The position numbers and the translations under genes were made by a program. Of a DNA stretch of 64,000 nucleotides, positions 5,360 through 63,033 are shown piece by piece (within the stretch, counting starts at the first letter, position 1; each line of letters begins with the position of its first letter). The stretch spans positions 248,001 through 312,000 of the forward strand of contig NZ_JACIEP010000004.1 in NCBI RefSeq assembly GCF_014196915.1, written 5' to 3'. Origin of the DNA: Dysgonomonas hofstadii (GTDB lineage: Bacteria; Bacteroidota; Bacteroidia; Bacteroidales; Dysgonomonadaceae). The notes below the pieces were generated by a model. That model made no database searches, was not told the origin of the DNA, and was given only the letters and a program-made list of their open reading frames with translations.

Positions 5360-5815
5360 ATGAAAATGATAGATTTAATATCAGAAAATGAAAATTTCAC
5401 CGCGGTTAATATTGGCAGACTGGATAACCTGATGGATTATTCTATCATTCATTTGAAAAGCCACAAAGAAGTAAAAGGCAAGGTATTTCTTAAAGATACA
5501 ACAAAATCAACAGGTACAGAAATCTCTTTTCAAATATTACAGCCTAAAGCAGAATTGGGATATTTTCATACTCACATTCAGAATGAGGAGACATACATTA
5601 TAATAAAAGGTACAGGTGAATTCCAGGTAGATGACCAGTGCTTTCCTATTGCCGAAGGAAGTGTTGTCAGAATTGCACCTGGAGGAAAGCGTAGTATGCG
5701 TAACTCTTCGGGTGAGCCGATGGTCTATATGGTGGTTCAGTCAAAAGCAGGTTCTTTAAGCCAGTATTCGATGGATGATGGCGAAAGAGTGGACTGCGAG
5801 CCTATATGGAAGTAA
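5360..5815 (+). CDS. Cupin domain protein
   Basis: A 151-residue single-domain cupin. Cupin motif 1 is visible as GYFHTHIQNEETYIIIKG (two His and one Glu metal ligands in the usual spacing). Motif 2 follows as EGSVVRIAPGGKRSMRNSSG, in which the last canonical histidine is replaced, so the metal site may be a three-residue one. Small cupins act as metal-dependent isomerases, dioxygenases or ligand-binding regulators, and nothing here selects one of these. The gene is monocistronic, with its own promoter about 40 bases upstream. It ends just before the promoter of the phenylalanine operon, with no strong terminator between them. Confidence 0.8.
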   Translation: MKMIDLISENENFTAVNIGRLDNLMDYSIIHLKSHKEVKGKVFLKDTTKSTGTEISFQILQPKAELGYFHTHIQNEETYIIIKGTGEFQVDDQCFPIAEGSVVRIAPGGKRSMRNSSGEPMVYMVVQSKAGSLSQYSMDDGERVDCEPIWK

Positions 5816-5861: not shown

Positions 5862-5891
5862 TTTGTATTATTCAAAAAAGTATTACATTTG
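5862..5891 (+). promoter_or_regulatory. Promoter of the phenylalanine operon (-33 TTTG, -7 TACATTTG)
   Basis: TTTG at 5862-5865 and TACATTTG at 5884-5891 are separated by 18 bases, a full match to the Bacteroidetes promoter layout (TTTG, about 19 bases, TAnnTTTG). The predicted start near 5898 leaves about 25 nt before the leader-peptide ATG and puts the whole attenuator inside the transcript. Confidence 0.7.
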
Positions 5892-5923
5892 TACCCATAT
5901 TTAGAAAACGACGATAGATTGAT

Positions 5924-5998
5924 ATGAATAATTTTTCATTTACATACTTTTTCTTTTTTTATTTTTACTTTAAAAGTAAGACAGGATTTTGTATGTAG
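5924..5998 (+). CDS. Phe/Tyr-rich leader peptide of the phenylalanine operon (24 aa)
   Basis: A 24-codon reading frame starting at ATG 5924 and ending at TAG 5996-5998. It holds nine Phe codons (residues 4, 6, 9-12, 14, 16, 22) and three Tyr codons (8, 13, 15), including the run YFFFFYFYF at residues 8-16. It begins about 25 nt after a consensus promoter. Its stop codon lies in the 5' arm of an antiterminator helix, and the first enzyme of the transcript is prephenate dehydratase. This is the arrangement of amino-acid leader peptides that measure charged tRNA-Phe. It has no useful Shine-Dalgarno, as is normal in Bacteroidetes. The reading frame and structures are seen directly; translation and the sensing role are inferred. 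Confidence 0.82.
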   Translation: MNNFSFTYFFFFYFYFKSKTGFCM

Positions 5999-6066
5999 AG
6001 GTTGTAAGAAAGAAATAAAACAATATGATATATAAAATCCTGTCTGATACGACAGGATTTTTTTTT
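5979..6066 (+). promoter_or_regulatory. Transcription attenuator (antiterminator/terminator pair) of the phenylalanine operon
   Basis: The terminator is an 11-bp perfect stem (AAAATCCTGTC at 6034-6044, GACAGGATTTT at 6051-6061, loop TGATAC), with nine T at 6058-6066. An exact copy of the 3' arm lies upstream at 5980-5990, inside the leader peptide. That copy can pair with 6034-6044, and the pairing extends to 18 bp (5979-5996 with 6028-6045, two G-U pairs), longer than the terminator it competes with. A ribosome stalled on the Phe run (5948-5971) leaves the antiterminator arm free. A ribosome reaching the stop codon at 5996-5998 covers it and lets the terminator form. Confidence 0.85.
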
Positions 6067-6081
6067 GATACTAAAATAAGG

Positions 6082-6924
6082 ATGAAGAAAGTAGCTATAC
6101 AAGGAGGTTTAGGAGCCTATCACGGCATTGCGGCAGAAAACTATTTCGGAGAAGAAGTGGAAATCGTTCCATGTATCACATTCCGTGATATATTTTCCGC
6201 CATTCAAAAGGAGCCCAACACAATAGGCATTATGGCTATTGAAAATACTATTGCAGGTAGTTTACTTGGCAATTACGAGTTATTGAAAAACAATAAACTA
6301 CCTATTGCCGGCGAATTTAAGCAGCGGATATCACATTGTCTGGCTGCACTTCCGGGAACATCTATACATGAGGTAAAGGAGGTAGAATCACATCCTATTG
6401 CCTTGATGCAGTGTACCAACTTCCTTGATACACTTCCCGGTGTAAGAATTATAGAGCATGAAGATACAGCTTTGGCTGCGAAAGATGTGGCAGACAAACA
6501 TTTAACGGCTACAGCAGCGATTTGTAGTACACGGGCAGCTGAAATTTACGGATTGGATATATTAGCGAGAGGAATTGAGACAAATAAGCACAATTTTACT
6601 CGCTTTCTTATTTTTGGCAATCGCTGGGTAGTAGATGAACTGCAAAAAGAAGAGGTGATAAACAAGTCGTCTATTGTATTCACATTACCTCATACCGAGG
6701 GTAGCCTGTCGAAAGTTCTTTCTGTCTTGTCGTTTTATGGGATAAGTCTTACAAAGATACAATCGTTACCAATAATCGGAAGGGAGTGGGAATACCAGTT
6801 TTATGTGGATCTGAAATTCTCAGATCTGGATAGGTATCATCAATCTTTGGATGCTATCCGCCCTTTGATAAGCGAATTGAAAACATTAGGTGAATACCCC
6901 GAAGGGAGACAGAGTGAAATTTAG
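6082..6924 (+). CDS. pheA: Prephenate dehydratase
   Basis: Converts prephenate to phenylpyruvate in phenylalanine synthesis. The 280-residue protein starts at ATG 6082 (MKKVAIQGGLGAYHGIAAENYF). An in-frame ATG at 6025 would put the start inside the attenuator and add 19 non-homologous residues, so I reject it. The catalytic domain shows GIMAIENTIAGS and the TRF motif (NFTRFLIFGNRW), which carries the catalytic threonine. A C-terminal ACT domain follows (GSLSKVLSVLSFYGISLTKI). The usual Phe-binding ESRP motif of this domain reads QSLP here, so allosteric feedback may differ from that of the enterobacterial enzyme. It is the first structural gene of a three-gene operon controlled by a Phe leader. 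The monofunctional dehydratase leaves chorismate mutase to the third gene. Confidence 0.93.
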   Translation: MKKVAIQGGLGAYHGIAAENYFGEEVEIVPCITFRDIFSAIQKEPNTIGIMAIENTIAGSLLGNYELLKNNKLPIAGEFKQRISHCLAALPGTSIHEVKEVESHPIALMQCTNFLDTLPGVRIIEHEDTALAAKDVADKHLTATAAICSTRAAEIYGLDILARGIETNKHNFTRFLIFGNRWVVDELQKEEVINKSSIVFTLPHTEGSLSKVLSVLSFYGISLTKIQSLPIIGREWEYQFYVDLKFSDLDRYHQSLDAIRPLISELKTLGEYPEGRQSEI

Positions 6925-6982: not shown

Positions 6983-8152
6983 ATGAAAGCAATACAACCG
7001 GCAGACCGCCTAAATACAGTAAGCGAATACTATTTCTCGAAGAAGTTAAGAGAAGTAGCAGAAATGAACGCAGCAGGTAAAAATGTTATCAGTTTAGGGG
7101 TGGGAAGCCCCGATCTTCCACCTTCCGAAGAAACAATAAATACGCTGGGAGAAACTGCTAAAAACAGTAATGCACATGGCTACCAGGTTCATGTCGGAAT
7201 TCCGGAGCTGAGAAAATCTTTTGCCGCATTCTATAAACGATGGTATAATGTCGATCTTGATCCTGCAAAGGAGATACAGCCCTTGATTGGTTCAAAGGAA
7301 GGGATTCTGCATATTTCACTGGCGTTTCTCAATCCGGGCGATGGCGTATTGGTTCCTAACCCGGGCTATCCGACTTATACATCTGTCAGCAGGTTGGTAG
7401 GAGCTGAAATCTGTTCTTACGATCTGGATGAAAACAACAACTGGCAACCGGATTTCGAAGCTTTAGAAAAGATGGATCTATCCAAAGTGAAATTGATGTG
7501 GGTAAATTATCCGAATATGCCAACCGGAGCCAATGGTAGTATTGAGTTATTTGAAAAGCTTGTTGCTTTTGGTAAAAAACATGGAATAATTATCGCTCAT
7601 GATAATCCCTATAGCCTTATTCTGAACGAGAATCCGATAAGTATTTTGCAGGTGGAAGGGGCAAAGGATATTTGTATAGAACTCAATTCGATGAGCAAAT
7701 CTCACAATATGCCCGGATGGCGTATAGGACTTGTGGCTTCTAATGCACAATTTATCCAATGGATACTAAAAGTCCTGAGCAATATTGAAAGTGGCATATT
7801 AAAGCCTATGCAGCAGGCTGCTGTCACAGCTCTTGATAATTCAGACGAATGGCATAGGAGAAACAATATAGAATTATATGCAAATCGTCGCCGGTATGCT
7901 GAAGCTATTATAGACGAATTAGGTTGTACTTACGATAAAAATCAGGTGGGTATGTTTCTCTGGGGAAAAATTTCTGCCAATTATTCAAGTAGTGAAGAAT
8001 TGGCCGATAAAATATTATACAATGCCAATGTATTCCTGACTCCCGGATTTATTTTCGGCAGCAAAGGGGAAGGATATATCCGCATATCGCTTTGTTGTAA
8101 CGAAAATATGTTGAGAGAAGCTTTAGAAAGGATAAAAAAGATATCACAATAA
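6983..8152 (+). CDS. PLP-dependent aminotransferase of the aromatic amino acid operon
   Basis: A fold-type I aminotransferase of 389 residues. The PLP-lysine motif is clear (SMSKSHNMPGWRIG), along with the N-terminal VISLGVGSPDLPPSEE and substrate/PLP residues around NPGYPTYTS and VNYPNMPTGA. It lies 58 bases after the prephenate dehydratase and 14 bases before DAHP synthase-chorismate mutase. It therefore probably performs the last step of phenylalanine/tyrosine synthesis (phenylpyruvate or 4-hydroxyphenylpyruvate transamination), or possibly prephenate transamination. The fold and chemistry are well supported; the substrate rests on gene context. General automatic names such as aspartate or LL-diaminopimelate aminotransferase would be plausible but less specific. 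Confidence 0.85.
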   Translation: MKAIQPADRLNTVSEYYFSKKLREVAEMNAAGKNVISLGVGSPDLPPSEETINTLGETAKNSNAHGYQVHVGIPELRKSFAAFYKRWYNVDLDPAKEIQPLIGSKEGILHISLAFLNPGDGVLVPNPGYPTYTSVSRLVGAEICSYDLDENNNWQPDFEALEKMDLSKVKLMWVNYPNMPTGANGSIELFEKLVAFGKKHGIIIAHDNPYSLILNENPISILQVEGAKDICIELNSMSKSHNMPGWRIGLVASNAQFIQWILKVLSNIESGILKPMQQAAVTALDNSDEWHRRNNIELYANRRRYAEAIIDELGCTYDKNQVGMFLWGKISANYSSSEELADKILYNANVFLTPGFIFGSKGEGYIRISLCCNENMLREALERIKKISQ

Positions 8153-8166
8153 ATAATATTATAAAT

Positions 8167-9228
8167 ATGAAACTGGAATCGATTTTACTACCGGGCATCG
8201 ACCCGAAACGCCCGCTTGTAATAGCAGGACCATGCAGTGCTGAGACAGAAGAGCAGGTAATGAACACAGCCCGTCAATTGGCTGATAATGGGATAAAAAT
8301 ACTTCGTGCAGGTATCTGGAAACCGCGTACCAAACCCGGAGGATTTGAAGGGGTAGGGAGTGAAGGCCTTGCCTGGCTGAAAAAGGTTAAGCAGGAAACA
8401 GGAATGTATGTTTCTACTGAAGTAGCTACTCAAAAACATGTTTATGAAGCATTGAAATATGGTGTGGATCTGTTGTGGATCGGTGCACGTACTACTGCAA
8501 ACCCTTTTGCCGTACAGGAAATTGCGGAAGCATTGCAAGGTGTGGATATTCCTGTATTAGTGAAAAATCCGGTGAATCCTGATCTTGAATTGTGGATCGG
8601 AGCTTTGGAGCGTTTGAGCAATGTCGGATTAACTAAGTTGGGAGCGATACACAGAGGTTTTAGTTCATACGATAAAAAAATATACCGCAATCTCCCTCAA
8701 TGGCATATCCCTATCGAGCTAAAACGCCGTTACCCTGATTTGCCGATTATTTGCGATCCGAGTCATATAGGCGGGAAACGCGATCTTATTCAGCCACTAT
8801 CACAGCAGGCAATGGACCTGAACTATGAAGGTCTGATTATAGAAACACATTGTAATCCGGACGAGGCTTGGAGTGATGCATCACAACAGGTAACTCCTGC
8901 CCGTCTGAAAGAAATTCTGGCTGCCCTTATAATACGTGATGCTAAGCAGTCTACGGAAGATCTTTCTGATCTTCGCCGTCAGATAGACGAAATAGACGAT
9001 CAATTACTCGAACTATTGGCTAAGCGTATGCGTGTGTCGTGCGAAATAGGTACATTTAAGAAGGAGCATAATATGACTATTGTTCAGACTGACCGGTATG
9101 ATGAAATATTAAGTAAGCGTATTTCCCAGGCTGAAGGAATGGATATGAATCCTGAGTTTATGCGTGTTGTTTTGGAAGCTATACACGATGAATCTGTAAG
9201 GCAACAGATCGTGATAATGAATAAATAA
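8167..9228 (+). CDS. Bifunctional DAHP synthase / chorismate mutase
   Basis: A 353-residue fusion. Residues 1-255 form a type I-beta (KDO8P-synthase-like) 3-deoxy-7-phosphoheptulonate synthase: LVIAGPCSAETEEQV, GIKILRAGIWKPRTKPGGFEG and the metal-site region PIICDPSHIGGKRDL. Residues about 263-353 form an AroQ-type chorismate mutase (LRRQIDEIDDQLLELLAKRM, then SCEIGTFKK and VLEAIHDESVRQQ). One protein thus performs the entry step of the shikimate pathway and the branch-point step to prephenate. The mutase domain is C-terminal, as in Porphyromonas and Bacteroides, opposite to the Bacillus order. It is the last gene of the attenuated operon, followed at once by a bidirectional terminator. The tyrA gene that I recall following in Bacteroides is not here. 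Confidence 0.93.
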   Translation: MKLESILLPGIDPKRPLVIAGPCSAETEEQVMNTARQLADNGIKILRAGIWKPRTKPGGFEGVGSEGLAWLKKVKQETGMYVSTEVATQKHVYEALKYGVDLLWIGARTTANPFAVQEIAEALQGVDIPVLVKNPVNPDLELWIGALERLSNVGLTKLGAIHRGFSSYDKKIYRNLPQWHIPIELKRRYPDLPIICDPSHIGGKRDLIQPLSQQAMDLNYEGLIIETHCNPDEAWSDASQQVTPARLKEILAALIIRDAKQSTEDLSDLRRQIDEIDDQLLELLAKRMRVSCEIGTFKKEHNMTIVQTDRYDEILSKRISQAEGMDMNPEFMRVVLEAIHDESVRQQIVIMNK

Positions 9229-22005: not shown

Positions 22006-25000
22006 TTATTGTTTACGTTTTTCTTTTTCCTTGCGTTCACGTTCCTGGGCTTTTTCTTTCTCGTCCCTTTCTTTTTCCCGTTGGCGCTGGCGTTCTTTTT
22101 GCAGGCGTTCTTTTTCTTTTCGCTCTTTTTCCCTGGCTTTTTCTTTCTCTTTACGTTCTTGTTCCTGTTGGTGGAGTCGCTCTTGCTGCTGGCGGATTCT
22201 TTCTTTACGTTCGTCCTCTTTGCGCTTACGTTCGTCCTCCCGGGCTTTTATAGTAGCTTTCTCGGCATCTTTTTTGGCTTGTTCTTCAAGTCTGAGTTGT
22301 TCTTTCTTTTGCTTTTCGGCAGTTTCGATAGAATCCTGTACTGCTTTTTCCACACGGGCGATAGAGTCAGCCCGGTTTTTTTCTGTCTTTCTGACAGAGT
22401 CCTGCGTAGCTTTAGCAAGTGCTTTAAGTTCTTTCTGACGTTGCTTTTCAAGTCTCTCTTCTTCTTTAAGGGCCTCTTTTTCTTCTTTTGTGAGGTTTTG
22501 ACGGTTCTTGTATTTATTGAACAATCCTCTGATGCCATCTACCGGATTACTTATAATCTCTTCTACCGATTTAATCGCATCGTCCACTTTTCCTAAAGCT
22601 TGACGCTGATCGTCAGTCAGCAGATCGTCCGCTGTTATCTGTTTATCGTTTACCGGTTGCTGAGTTTGCTTATCAGGTTGTCTTGTCTCGGTTACAACTT
22701 TTGGAACTGTTTTTATTTCAGGTGTTATTTTAGGTTCTTCCTCTTTGATCTCTTCTGTTTCTTTAATAGTTTGTTCTTCCTGTTGCGATTTTGTGACTTC
22801 AGCCACAAGATCTTCTATTTCACTGGTATTTAGGTTCCAATGTGTTATAAGTATAGGAAGCTGATCCTGATAATGTTCGGCAAAGAAGGTGGTGTATTGC
22901 TCCATGCCTAAGCGTGGGAGAACTTTCACATAATTGTCGGTAGAGATTGGAATGGCGACAATAGATGTGTCTATTTTATTAAACAGGCCGTCTTCTGTAA
23001 ATGCTTTATTCAGATATGAACGGATATTGGCAAATTTGTTGAAACCCTTGATTTGAAGAATATCATAAGGCGGATTGGTTTCGAAATTCAGATCGTATGT
23101 CTGGATCACATAGTTGGAAAAATTATAATCGGCCACTTCATACAGTAACTCATTGCGGTCTATGGTATTTGATCTGAACATCAGCAAGAGCAGGTATTCG
23201 GTATCCAGACTATCGGAAAATGCCAACGTGCGGCCATCTCCTCCGGTCATTGTGCTGTCTCCGGGATTAGCCAGGCTCCAATCGAAACCGGTAATAGGAG
23301 AACCGTCAGACAAAAGCGGTTGTCCGTCCTTTATTTTTTTCAGTATATCTTCAGCCAGAGGTGCTACTTCCGATTTCGGATATTTGTCTACAAGTTCAGT
23401 CAGATTGTCTGTCAGCCCTTTAGCATCTCTTATTTGTGCATACGACAAGGCATTAAGCATGATAAATTGCGGCATTAAGCCGGTTAACGGATAGCGCCTG
23501 TTTATTTCATCGTAATTTTTTCTTATCGTTTGCACATCAGCCTGCTGGTATGCATCGAAAGCCTGTGTATAGAGAGAATCCACCATGGCGGGCATATGCC
23601 TGAAATTCCATTCATAATCGGGATGGGATAACGTTTTTGCATATACCTTATCCGGAAATTCATTAAGCAGTTTATTGCGATAGGAGGCCATCATGCCACG
23701 GTTTTCCGCTTGCATATATATTAGAAAGAGCTGATAGTATATCTCCTCGAGATTAGGAGTATCAGGGAAGCGGCGAATATCGGTATTGAAAGCATCTATA
23801 GCGAGATTGTTATCTTCCAGCTTGTTTTTATAGATCAACCCCATATTGAACAGGGCATTCTCTATCAATGTGTTTGATTGATGTACCGCTTCTTCTGTAA
23901 AAGGAAGTTGTTGTAAATAATATTCGACAGAGAAAATATCGTTGCTGATGGATGCCGGTTTCAGGCTGTCACTTTCTTGTATTTTGGGTTTTTCTGCAAG
24001 GAGTGAATCGTTTTCGTTTATAATATCAGTTTCTGCAAAATCAGAAAATCCGCCTGTCTTATCCTTCCTTCGCCAGTCGTCTTCTAATTTGCGGGTACCC
24101 CATTGTTTTTGAAATGCGATCTTGCCTTGCGATACAGCTTGTTCATTATAGAAATAGAATGAATTGGCATCTCCCTGTTTTCCGGTAGTATTCACCAACG
24201 GCACATTTACGGCAGGTTTTTGCATTGCCGTTTCCATGTCGGCCCAACTCGAAATCCTCTCCTGTCGGTTTCCCTCTTGTTGCTGACGCTCTTCTTCTTT
24301 TTTACGCTCTTCTTCTTTCTTTTTTTCTTCTTCTATTTTGGCATGAATGATTATTAATCGTTCTTCTTCCGGTAACCGGGCGAGGTACTGAAGGCTATCT
24401 TGTTCATATACGGTTTTTACATGCACAACAAGTTCATCCAGCACATCGGAACGAAGTGCTACTTTCGGGTATTCGGGATGCGATTTTTTTAGTTGGGGTA
24501 ATGCTTCGGAATAGTTAGGCTGCGCCAAAACGAATTCCCGTTTATTAAAATACAGGTCACCGAGTGTAACCTGTGCCATGGCCTTGTCGTAGCCGTTACG
24601 GGTACTTCCTTTTATGGCTTTGCGATAGTTCTCAATGGCCTTGATTGTATCGGAATTTTGAAGATAAATATTTCCGATGCTCAAATATAGTTGGTCGAGA
24701 TATTCCTTGTTTTTCGAACTGTGAGCCATTTTCGATAGGTCGGCTATCGCTTTTCTGGTATCGTTCGATGCATTAAGTTGTAGTTGATTCAGCTTTGCAT
24801 TGAAACTGAATTTGTAAGGTGTGTTCATCCCTTGTACAGACGCGAAAGCTTTGTTTGCATTCGTCTTATCGCCGGTCTCTGCATATATCTGTCCCAGCAG
24901 ATACTTCATCCGAAGTCTCTGGTGTTTATCTTTTTCTTTTTTTATGGCGAATTCCAGATGTGGTATGGCGGCTTTGTAGTCATTAGTCCTGATCAGGTAG

Positions 25001-62715: not shown

Positions 62716-62849
62716 AAGTTGAATTATAAAATGATTTCAATTTATTGGGAGAATCGTTGCAGAAGCAGAAAGCAGGAAGGTTTTTTACATTTGTGAAGTA
62801 GCAATGTAAGTCATCCATCCTGTCGCTTTCACCCGAAGCTCCGGACTTT

Positions 62850-63020
62850 CCCTAAATACGGCAGGTCTTCTGACTTATTTCAGAGTTAGACGCCTTCCCA
62901 TCTTTTTTGTTTCTGACAGTGGCGCGAATGTCTAATTCTTTTACGAAATTTACAGCTACGGGGATAGTTCAGGACTTGCACCTGATTCCCTTTTATCCGA
63001 TTTTTGCCGGAACCGTATAT
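62850..63020 (-). ncRNA. Cobalamin (adenosylcobalamin-type) riboswitch upstream of nrdDG
   Basis: Read on the minus strand, all conserved blocks occur in order: GGTTCCGGC near the 5' end, AAAAGGGAATCAGGTGCAAG and TCCTGAACTATCCCCG (P3-P5 core), GTAGCTGTAAA, GCCACTGTC, GATGGGAAGGCG and the B12 box AAGTCAGAAGACCTGCC. The element lies between a TACCTTTG promoter (63026-63033) and nrdD. No terminator with a T tract follows in the about 135 nt before the start codon, so translational control is more likely than termination. The remainder of the 506-base gap 62716-63221 shows only a weak TTACATT/AATGTAA hairpin. Confidence 0.93.
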
Positions 63021-63025
63021 GAAAA

Positions 63026-63033
63026 CAAAGGTA
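63026..63033 (-). promoter_or_regulatory. -7 promoter element for the riboswitch-nrdDG transcript
   Basis: Minus-strand TACCTTTG is a perfect TAnnTTTG element placed so that transcription begins right at the 5' end of the riboswitch (about 63019). Confidence 0.6.

Follow-up and report, generated by a model that had tools for sequence, protein, structure and literature searches.

A putative ribosome-mediated attenuator with a mixed phenylalanine and tyrosine leader before the pheA operon of Dysgonomonas hofstadii and other Bacteroidia

The pheA operon and its leader

How is the pheA operon of Dysgonomonas hofstadii controlled, and does the short aromatic reading frame in front of it respond to phenylalanine only or to tyrosine as well? 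The locus lies in a window of 64,000 nucleotides, the whole stretch of DNA that was analyzed (contig NZ_JACIEP010000004.1, positions 248,001 to 312,000), and coordinates below refer to this window unless stated otherwise. Family searches identified three genes on the forward strand: pheA, encoding prephenate dehydratase (6082-6924; PF00800, E 2.1e-54), a class I/II aminotransferase gene (6983-8152; PF00155) and a gene for a DAHP synthase fused to chorismate mutase (8167-9228; PF00793 + PF01817). The last of these enzymes serves both the Phe and the Tyr routes. The start of pheA was placed at 6082 by comparison with relatives, and not at the in-frame ATG at 6025. The leader follows a cupin gene (5360-5815) and precedes the operon. 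On the basis of its sequence, conservation, covariation, model energetics and operon context, we consider it very probable that this leader acts as a ribosome-mediated transcription attenuator and that both charged tRNA-Phe and charged tRNA-Tyr are read.

The promoter was read from the sequence (5862-5891, forward strand) as a −33-like TTTG at 5862-5865, a spacer of 18 nucleotides and a −7-like TACATTTG at 5884-5891, an arrangement that we take to be the Bacteroidetes consensus. Among leaders from near relatives, 77 of 78 have the motif TAnnTTTG at most 110 nt ahead of their start, as do 43 of 65 leaders from a wider set, versus 6 of 139 control segments. The leader frame (5924-5998, forward strand) encodes the peptide MNNFSFTYFFFFYFYFKSKTGFCM in 24 codons before the stop, nine for Phe and three for Tyr, and its aromatic core is kept in relatives. 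According to the fold model described below, the sensing codons would be Y8-F16 (YFFFFYFYF, 5945-5971).

The same strand carries the segments of three helices. Segment 1, TTTACATAC (5939-5947), spans codons 6-8 (Phe6-Thr7-Tyr8) and is a protector arm pairing with 5991-5999, as indicated by the minimum-energy fold, by comparison of own with crossed pairings and by pair counts. Segment 2 (5979-5999), defined by the fold and by pair counts, combines the 5' arm of the antiterminator (5979-5996) with the partner of segment 1 and holds the leader stop codon at 5996-5998. Segment 3 (6028-6045) is the antiterminator 3' arm; its positions 6034-6044 double as the 5' arm of the terminator, as seen in pair counts and in one shared-arm alignment column. 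The intrinsic terminator (6034-6066) comprises an 11-bp stem (6034-6061) and nine T (6058-6066), with pairing that was followed over 78 sequences. The antiterminator, 5979-5996 with 6028-6045, has 18 pairs of which two are G-U, and a duplex energy of −22.5 kcal/mol; the 11 pairs of the terminator stem amount to −13.8 kcal/mol. A preliminary description of this DNA had named the promoter, the leader with its Phe and Tyr codons, both of these helices and a stop codon inside the antiterminator 5' arm, and each was recovered in the place given there. It had overlooked the third helix, 5939-5947 with 5991-5999, which is part of the minimum-energy fold and whose addition yields the classical attenuator set 1:2, 2:3 and 3:4. 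The fold of 5890-6070 was beaten or equalled by none of 200 dinucleotide shuffles (z −3.32).

The locus thus carries a leader frame rich in codons for the pathway products, a terminator before the first gene, a mutually exclusive antiterminator and a protector helix. In the proposed mechanism RNA polymerase would start just after 5891 and a ribosome would begin the leader peptide at 5924. If either charged tRNA were short, the ribosome would stall on 5945-5971 and cover segment 1, leaving segment 2 free to form the 18-bp antiterminator with segment 3; the terminator would be blocked and the genes for prephenate dehydratase, the aminotransferase and DAHP synthase/chorismate mutase would be transcribed. 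With both charged tRNAs plentiful, the ribosome would reach the stop at 5996-5998 and cover segment 2, so that the terminator of segments 3 and 4 would form and transcription would end near 6066. We infer that the leader is translated, that ribosomes stall on it, that termination takes place in the cell and that the outcome responds to Phe and Tyr.

A scan of the whole window for short frames of biased composition followed by a terminator returned the Phe/Tyr leader and two other sites. One of these (24277-24357, forward strand) is antisense to a Glu/Lys-rich coding stretch and the other (48150, forward strand) lies inside an 805-aa frame; both were rejected as chance. Together with shuffled sequences, the scan ruled out a chance T-rich frame as the source of the leader. 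A covariance model built from the near leaders gave one strong match in the own genome (E 6.6e-15), with the next at 0.0665, and no second copy was found between these values.

Distribution of the leader and its tyrosine codons

The near set consisted of 80 named relatives, the best 80 of 552 confirmed matches, among which the pheA of the window was closest to a Dysgonomonas locus with 91% identity. Two loci (L033 and L070) were left out since they end at contig edges upstream, and 78 could be evaluated. A leader was scored when 6 of 10 codons were Phe or Tyr, a criterion reached by 16 of 690 shuffled upstream stretches and 2 of 69 opposite strands. With a threshold of at least 7 in 10 codons, a short frame was found within 600 nt before pheA in 57 of 69 loci versus 3 of 690 shuffles. 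By the first criterion 77 of the 78 near relatives have a Phe/Tyr leader ahead of pheA, and L071 is the exception; in L012 and L058 the leader sits more than 260 nt upstream of the gene. At the level of the genus, the covariance model matched 22 of 25 genomes at E <1e-10, the own genome included, and the three that it missed are 55-74% complete. One genus genome has a second, weaker match (G245:C250:17672-17802, E 3.7e-7).

Beyond the near set, an order-wide sample of 79 genomes contained 35 with pheA. Leaving out one whose sequence ends early (L144), 33 could be evaluated besides our own, one of them from the same genus, and 31 had the leader (absent in L175 and L177). A further sample of the order, 228 genomes of which 102 have pheA, added 60 loci new to the analysis; 59 were evaluable, L225 having 15 nt of upstream sequence, and 53 of these have a leader at most 400 nt upstream of pheA. 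A phylum-wide sample of 158 genomes, 138 with pheA, was used for the remainder of the class and for other classes, with all 34 genomes of the same class outside the order and 26 of 103 from other classes examined. The leader was present in 30 of the 34 and in 4 of the 26. All four belonged to six genomes picked for highest pheA similarity, versus none of 20 picked at about one per family, and they may reflect transfer. The pheA genes of these four (L117, L118, L119 and L120) are among the most similar outside the class.

These surveys show that the predicted leader is widely kept in the class Bacteroidia. The preliminary description had considered the element with respect to Bacteroidales; it is not confined to that order, as the other genomes of the class make clear. 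A pheA gene lacking the leader occurs in L071, L175, L177, four genomes of the class, 6 of the 59 further loci and 22 of the 26 genomes from other classes. In two loci with no leader (L097 and L106) another frame extends to the pheA start, and L218, L224 and L252 have a lone pheA and no leader.

Tyr codons occur in 141 of the 143 leaders of the near and wide sets, with a median content of 6 Phe and 4 Tyr in near leaders and 5 Phe and 4 Tyr in wide ones. Over the same 143 leaders TTY codons number 844 and TTR codons 38, an excess that fits selection on the predicted leader peptide. The core lacks Tyr only in L132, L133 and L147, of which L132 has a Tyr outside it.

Tyr codons in the core were compared with the genes that follow. 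In the near set DAHP synthase/chorismate mutase was found in 75 of 80 loci and tyrA lies downstream of the operon in at least 38 of 80. In the wide set downstream DNA was examined for 54 of 65 loci: the three with Tyr-free cores, which had been picked for their leaders, 17 others and a further 34. In these three, aminotransferase, DAHP synthase and tyrA were undetected within about 7 kb, and the other 51 all have a DAHP synthase gene downstream and Tyr in the core. Because the Tyr-free loci had been chosen by their leaders, a fixed rule was then applied to the 60 new loci, scoring whether the best 10-codon stretch contains Tyr and whether an aminotransferase, DAHP synthase or tyrA gene follows on the same strand. 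Among the 53 loci with a leader in this second set, all 50 operons have Tyr, and two of the three lone pheA genes do not (Fisher p 0.002, uncorrected for kinship). The third, L243, with the leader MYFDFVFGFLFCFPKS, has a single Tyr at codon 2 and was counted against the prediction. The two Tyr-free loci are L226 and L247, from the genera of L132 and L147, and for L247 no more than 2.3 kb of downstream DNA was available. The lone genes thus represent four families, of which three are Tyr-free. Two other genomes from one of these families (f48), L249 and L258, carry the operon and have Tyr. Pooling both sets, Tyr-free cores were found in 5 of 6 leaders of lone pheA genes versus 0 of 101 leaders of pheA-DAHP synthase operons.

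This pattern bears on the sensor specificity in the preliminary description, which had proposed an attenuator sensing Phe. There is strong support for ribosome-mediated transcription attenuation of an operon for aromatic amino acids; a restriction to Phe appears unlikely. A sensor of Phe alone, in which Tyr codons would be neutral stand-ins that keep the run T-rich, would agree with Phe being the commoner residue in the leaders and with a first gene that serves only Phe. It is nevertheless improbable, since nearly every leader contains Tyr and the Tyr core tracks operon content, being universal in the multi-gene operons examined and missing in five leaders, all before a lone pheA. The Tyr codons instead appear to fit an operon whose DAHP synthase/chorismate mutase, and often tyrA, serve both amino acids. 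That Tyr codons go with operon content amounts to a natural experiment and suggests that it is the codons that are sensed.

The tyrA gene of the own genome (contig positions 243420-244202) stands some 10 kb upstream of pheA. No aromatic leader was found in the 400 nt before it, the best short frame having 3 Phe or Tyr in 10 codons.

Alternative helices and ribosome position

Covariation was counted on the 78 aligned leaders as cells with changes on both sides, and compared with 500 shuffles. The antiterminator had 82 such cells versus a shuffled mean of 33, the terminator 68 versus 14.3 (98.9% of cells paired) and the protector 42 versus 24 (78% paired), with none of the 500 shuffles as high for any helix; as shuffling leaves shared ancestry in place, these counts are not probabilities. 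When the partner was slid by one to three columns, at most 45, 22 and 13 cells were obtained for antiterminator, terminator and protector, respectively. Two stricter measures were not decisive. For the number of pairs with a double change, 49 (antiterminator), 16 (terminator) and 69 (protector) of 500 shuffles were as high, and for further pair types 343, 56 and 19, in the same order.

The clearest single covariation result is the shared-arm column. At columns 74, 172 and 188, which belong to segments 2, 3 and 4, the combinations GCG (36 leaders), ATA (30), ATG (7) and GTA (5) occur, and the middle base pairs with both of its alternative partners in all 78 sequences while the pair type changes. 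The protector is the weakest of the three helices, and termination at the stop is reached without it. Where GCA (Ala) stands in place of its Thr codon ACA, segment 2 has in most cases changed to match. As its pair counts were affected by a one-column alignment shift in the Paludibacter group, the comparison was redone per sequence: own protector segments pair at a mean of −6.2 kcal/mol versus −4.6 kcal/mol for crossed segments of different type. Of the twelve types of segment 1, two contradict compensation: ATATAT does not pair better with its own partner than with those of others, and for ACTTAC the partner pairs better with segment 1 of others. As located by a pattern anchor, the stop codon precedes the antiterminator arm in 57 of the 78 near leaders; in the window it lies inside the arm. 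The preliminary description had proposed, as a check on its reading, to ask whether relatives keep the Phe run and the hairpins. The outcome is in its favor, the former being kept as part of the Phe/Tyr leader in 77 of 78 near relatives and the latter with covarying helices.

To model the effect of ribosome position, everything between the leader start and a point 11 nt beyond the A-site codon was masked, and the rest of the RNA was folded. The transcript was cut at the terminator loop, and the antiterminator was scored by whether upstream sequence holds the 5' arm of the terminator. A ribosome on the aromatic codons then gave an antiterminator probability above 0.5 in 78 of 78 near leaders (median of the best codon 0.83), versus 1 of 78 with the ribosome at the stop (median 0.12). 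Footprints of 6-17 nt left this result at 78 of 78 on stalling versus 1 or 2 of 78 at the stop. In the wide set a terminator was found in 62 of 65 leaders, and the antiterminator formed in 59 of these 62 on stalling versus none at the stop. The shuffled-spacer control was not low (median 0.44 in both sets; above 0.5 in 13 of 78 near and 22 of 62 wide leaders), so the fold test distinguishes a stalled ribosome from one at the stop better than it distinguishes real leaders from shuffled ones. Without a ribosome the cut transcript favored the antiterminator in 55 of 78 leaders, the window included (1.00), and the role of the protector is therefore not clear-cut. In the model, the placement of codons and stop would let a stalled ribosome free segment 2 and a finished one mask it.

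For the full-length leader RNA of the window at equilibrium, a ribosome stalled anywhere in codons 6-15 gave a terminator probability of 0.0, compared with 0.96 for one at the stop and 0.95 without a ribosome. Stalls at codons 8-15 led to the antiterminator and at F16 to a mixture. The preliminary description had held that reading to the stop codon is needed for termination; the model indeed forms the terminator at the stop, but the predicted flip comes earlier, around the last aromatic codon, from F16 to K17. At full-length equilibrium only 28 of the 78 near leaders switch. In the others the terminator wins, so the switch there must be kinetic and depend on co-transcriptional timing, a dependence that is usual for ribosome-mediated attenuators.

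The indecisive outcome of the stricter covariation measures would suit constitutive hairpins, that is, an ordinary terminator or processing site next to an aromatic frame that is untranslated or has no regulatory role. We regard this as very unlikely, given that the shared-arm base of two exclusive helices changes and still keeps both pairs in every near leader, that TTY codons far outnumber TTR codons, and that in the fold model the sensing codons are placed where a stall frees segment 2 in 78 of 78 leaders. Direct binding of Phe or of uncharged tRNA, by an aptamer riboswitch or a T-box, would likewise agree with a 5' leader that is conserved and structured and lies ahead of a biosynthetic operon, yet it is hardly credible, as no Rfam riboswitch or T-box reached threshold at the window leader or in 17 relative loci and the conserved parts are the coding frame and the complementary arms, with a variable spacer.

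Relation to known attenuators

The mechanism of the proposed attenuator is that of the textbook. The leader resembles E. coli pheL-pheA (Rfam RF01859, Phe_leader), where a short Phe-rich leader and a terminator likewise precede the prephenate dehydratase gene. Under the same fold model pheL behaves similarly, its antiterminator probability being 0.8 for a ribosome at most of the Phe codons and falling to 0.0 at the stop. Unlike the window leader, pheL is without Tyr, and E. coli pheA differs in having a convergent tyrA next to it. At the window the RF01859 model scored 22.9 bits (E 0.098), below its gathering threshold of 55 bits; in the Rfam scan no family reached its gathering score at the window leader, and in the 17 relative loci only a tRNA did. 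The Bacteroides sRNA family BTnc201 was rejected as a match, with 18.6 bits at the window, far below threshold, and none of the 17 relatives' leaders matched. The sequence depth is enough for a ready-made RNA family.

Attenuators with codons for more than one amino acid include E. coli thrL (Thr/Ile) and the ilv leaders (Ile/Val/Leu). There, too, a single leader responds to more than one product of a branched pathway, as proposed for the window with Phe and Tyr. We know of no Phe/Tyr attenuator that has been described, and in the open-access papers searched, among the best matches listed, no description of a Phe/Tyr leader in Bacteroidia was recognized. The closest report, in its accessible part, concerns Flavobacterium psychrophilum, with a structured 5' element before pheA that also occurs in other Flavobacteriaceae and has no Rfam hit, and with clues to leader peptide attenuation before amino acid operons (PMC9723704). 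It involves the same gene in the same phylum as the window; the accessible description is without sequence, codons or structures. Identity of this element with the Phe/Tyr leader appears likely. For Bacteroides thetaiotaomicron, the accessible part of a study of 5' UTRs mentions leader-like short frames, with BT_4401, encoding a hypothetical protein, as the example, unlike the pheA of the window (PMC7366714). The theory of regulatory codons is treated in another paper (PMC1183508), and a comparative study of attenuation from 2010 (Mol Biol 44:128), which may list Bacteroidetes cases, is cited in the accessible text of PMC4833913. Since the search covered open-access papers, novelty is limited to the variant and its breadth and does not extend to attenuation in the phylum. 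The features that seem new are how widely the leader is spread, its use of two kinds of codon and the agreement of these codons with operon content.

Two further amino acid leaders were found in the own genome. The hisG gene is preceded by a His-rich leader, MKNNMHHHHFNYSPDGK, and a terminator of −23 kcal/mol (L179, reverse strand, leader from 738); 492 nt separate the terminator from the hisG start, with 47% G+C versus 40% for the locus. A Trp leader, MNFLLTNTFWWWHSQLKKS, with a terminator of −18 kcal/mol stands before trpB-trpE (L180:6-65), trpB as first gene being read from the sequence and not by family search. In the fold model the His leader gave an antiterminator probability of 0.5 at most on His codons versus 0.2 at the stop, a weak separation, and the Trp leader 0.5 throughout. 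No Thr- or Ile-rich leader was seen near the homoserine dehydrogenase gene in the stretch examined, which may end short of the gene start.

A wider reading appears reasonably likely to us: an attenuator ancestral to the class Bacteroidia would sense Phe and Tyr by one mixed-codon leader, the codon mix would be re-tuned to the controlled genes, with Tyr codons dropped where pheA stands apart from the operon, and, in view of the His and Trp leaders, ribosome-mediated attenuation with tight transcription-translation coupling would be general for amino acid synthesis in these bacteria. In this way a textbook form of regulation, familiar above all from enteric bacteria, would be extended to a class dominant in the gut. 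Bacteroidia start translation mostly without Shine-Dalgarno pairing. If the attenuator works, the ribosome trails the polymerase closely enough in these bacteria to steer termination. A regulatory RNA element of another kind, a cobalamin riboswitch, was detected elsewhere in the window (62843-63032, reverse strand, 102.9 bits).
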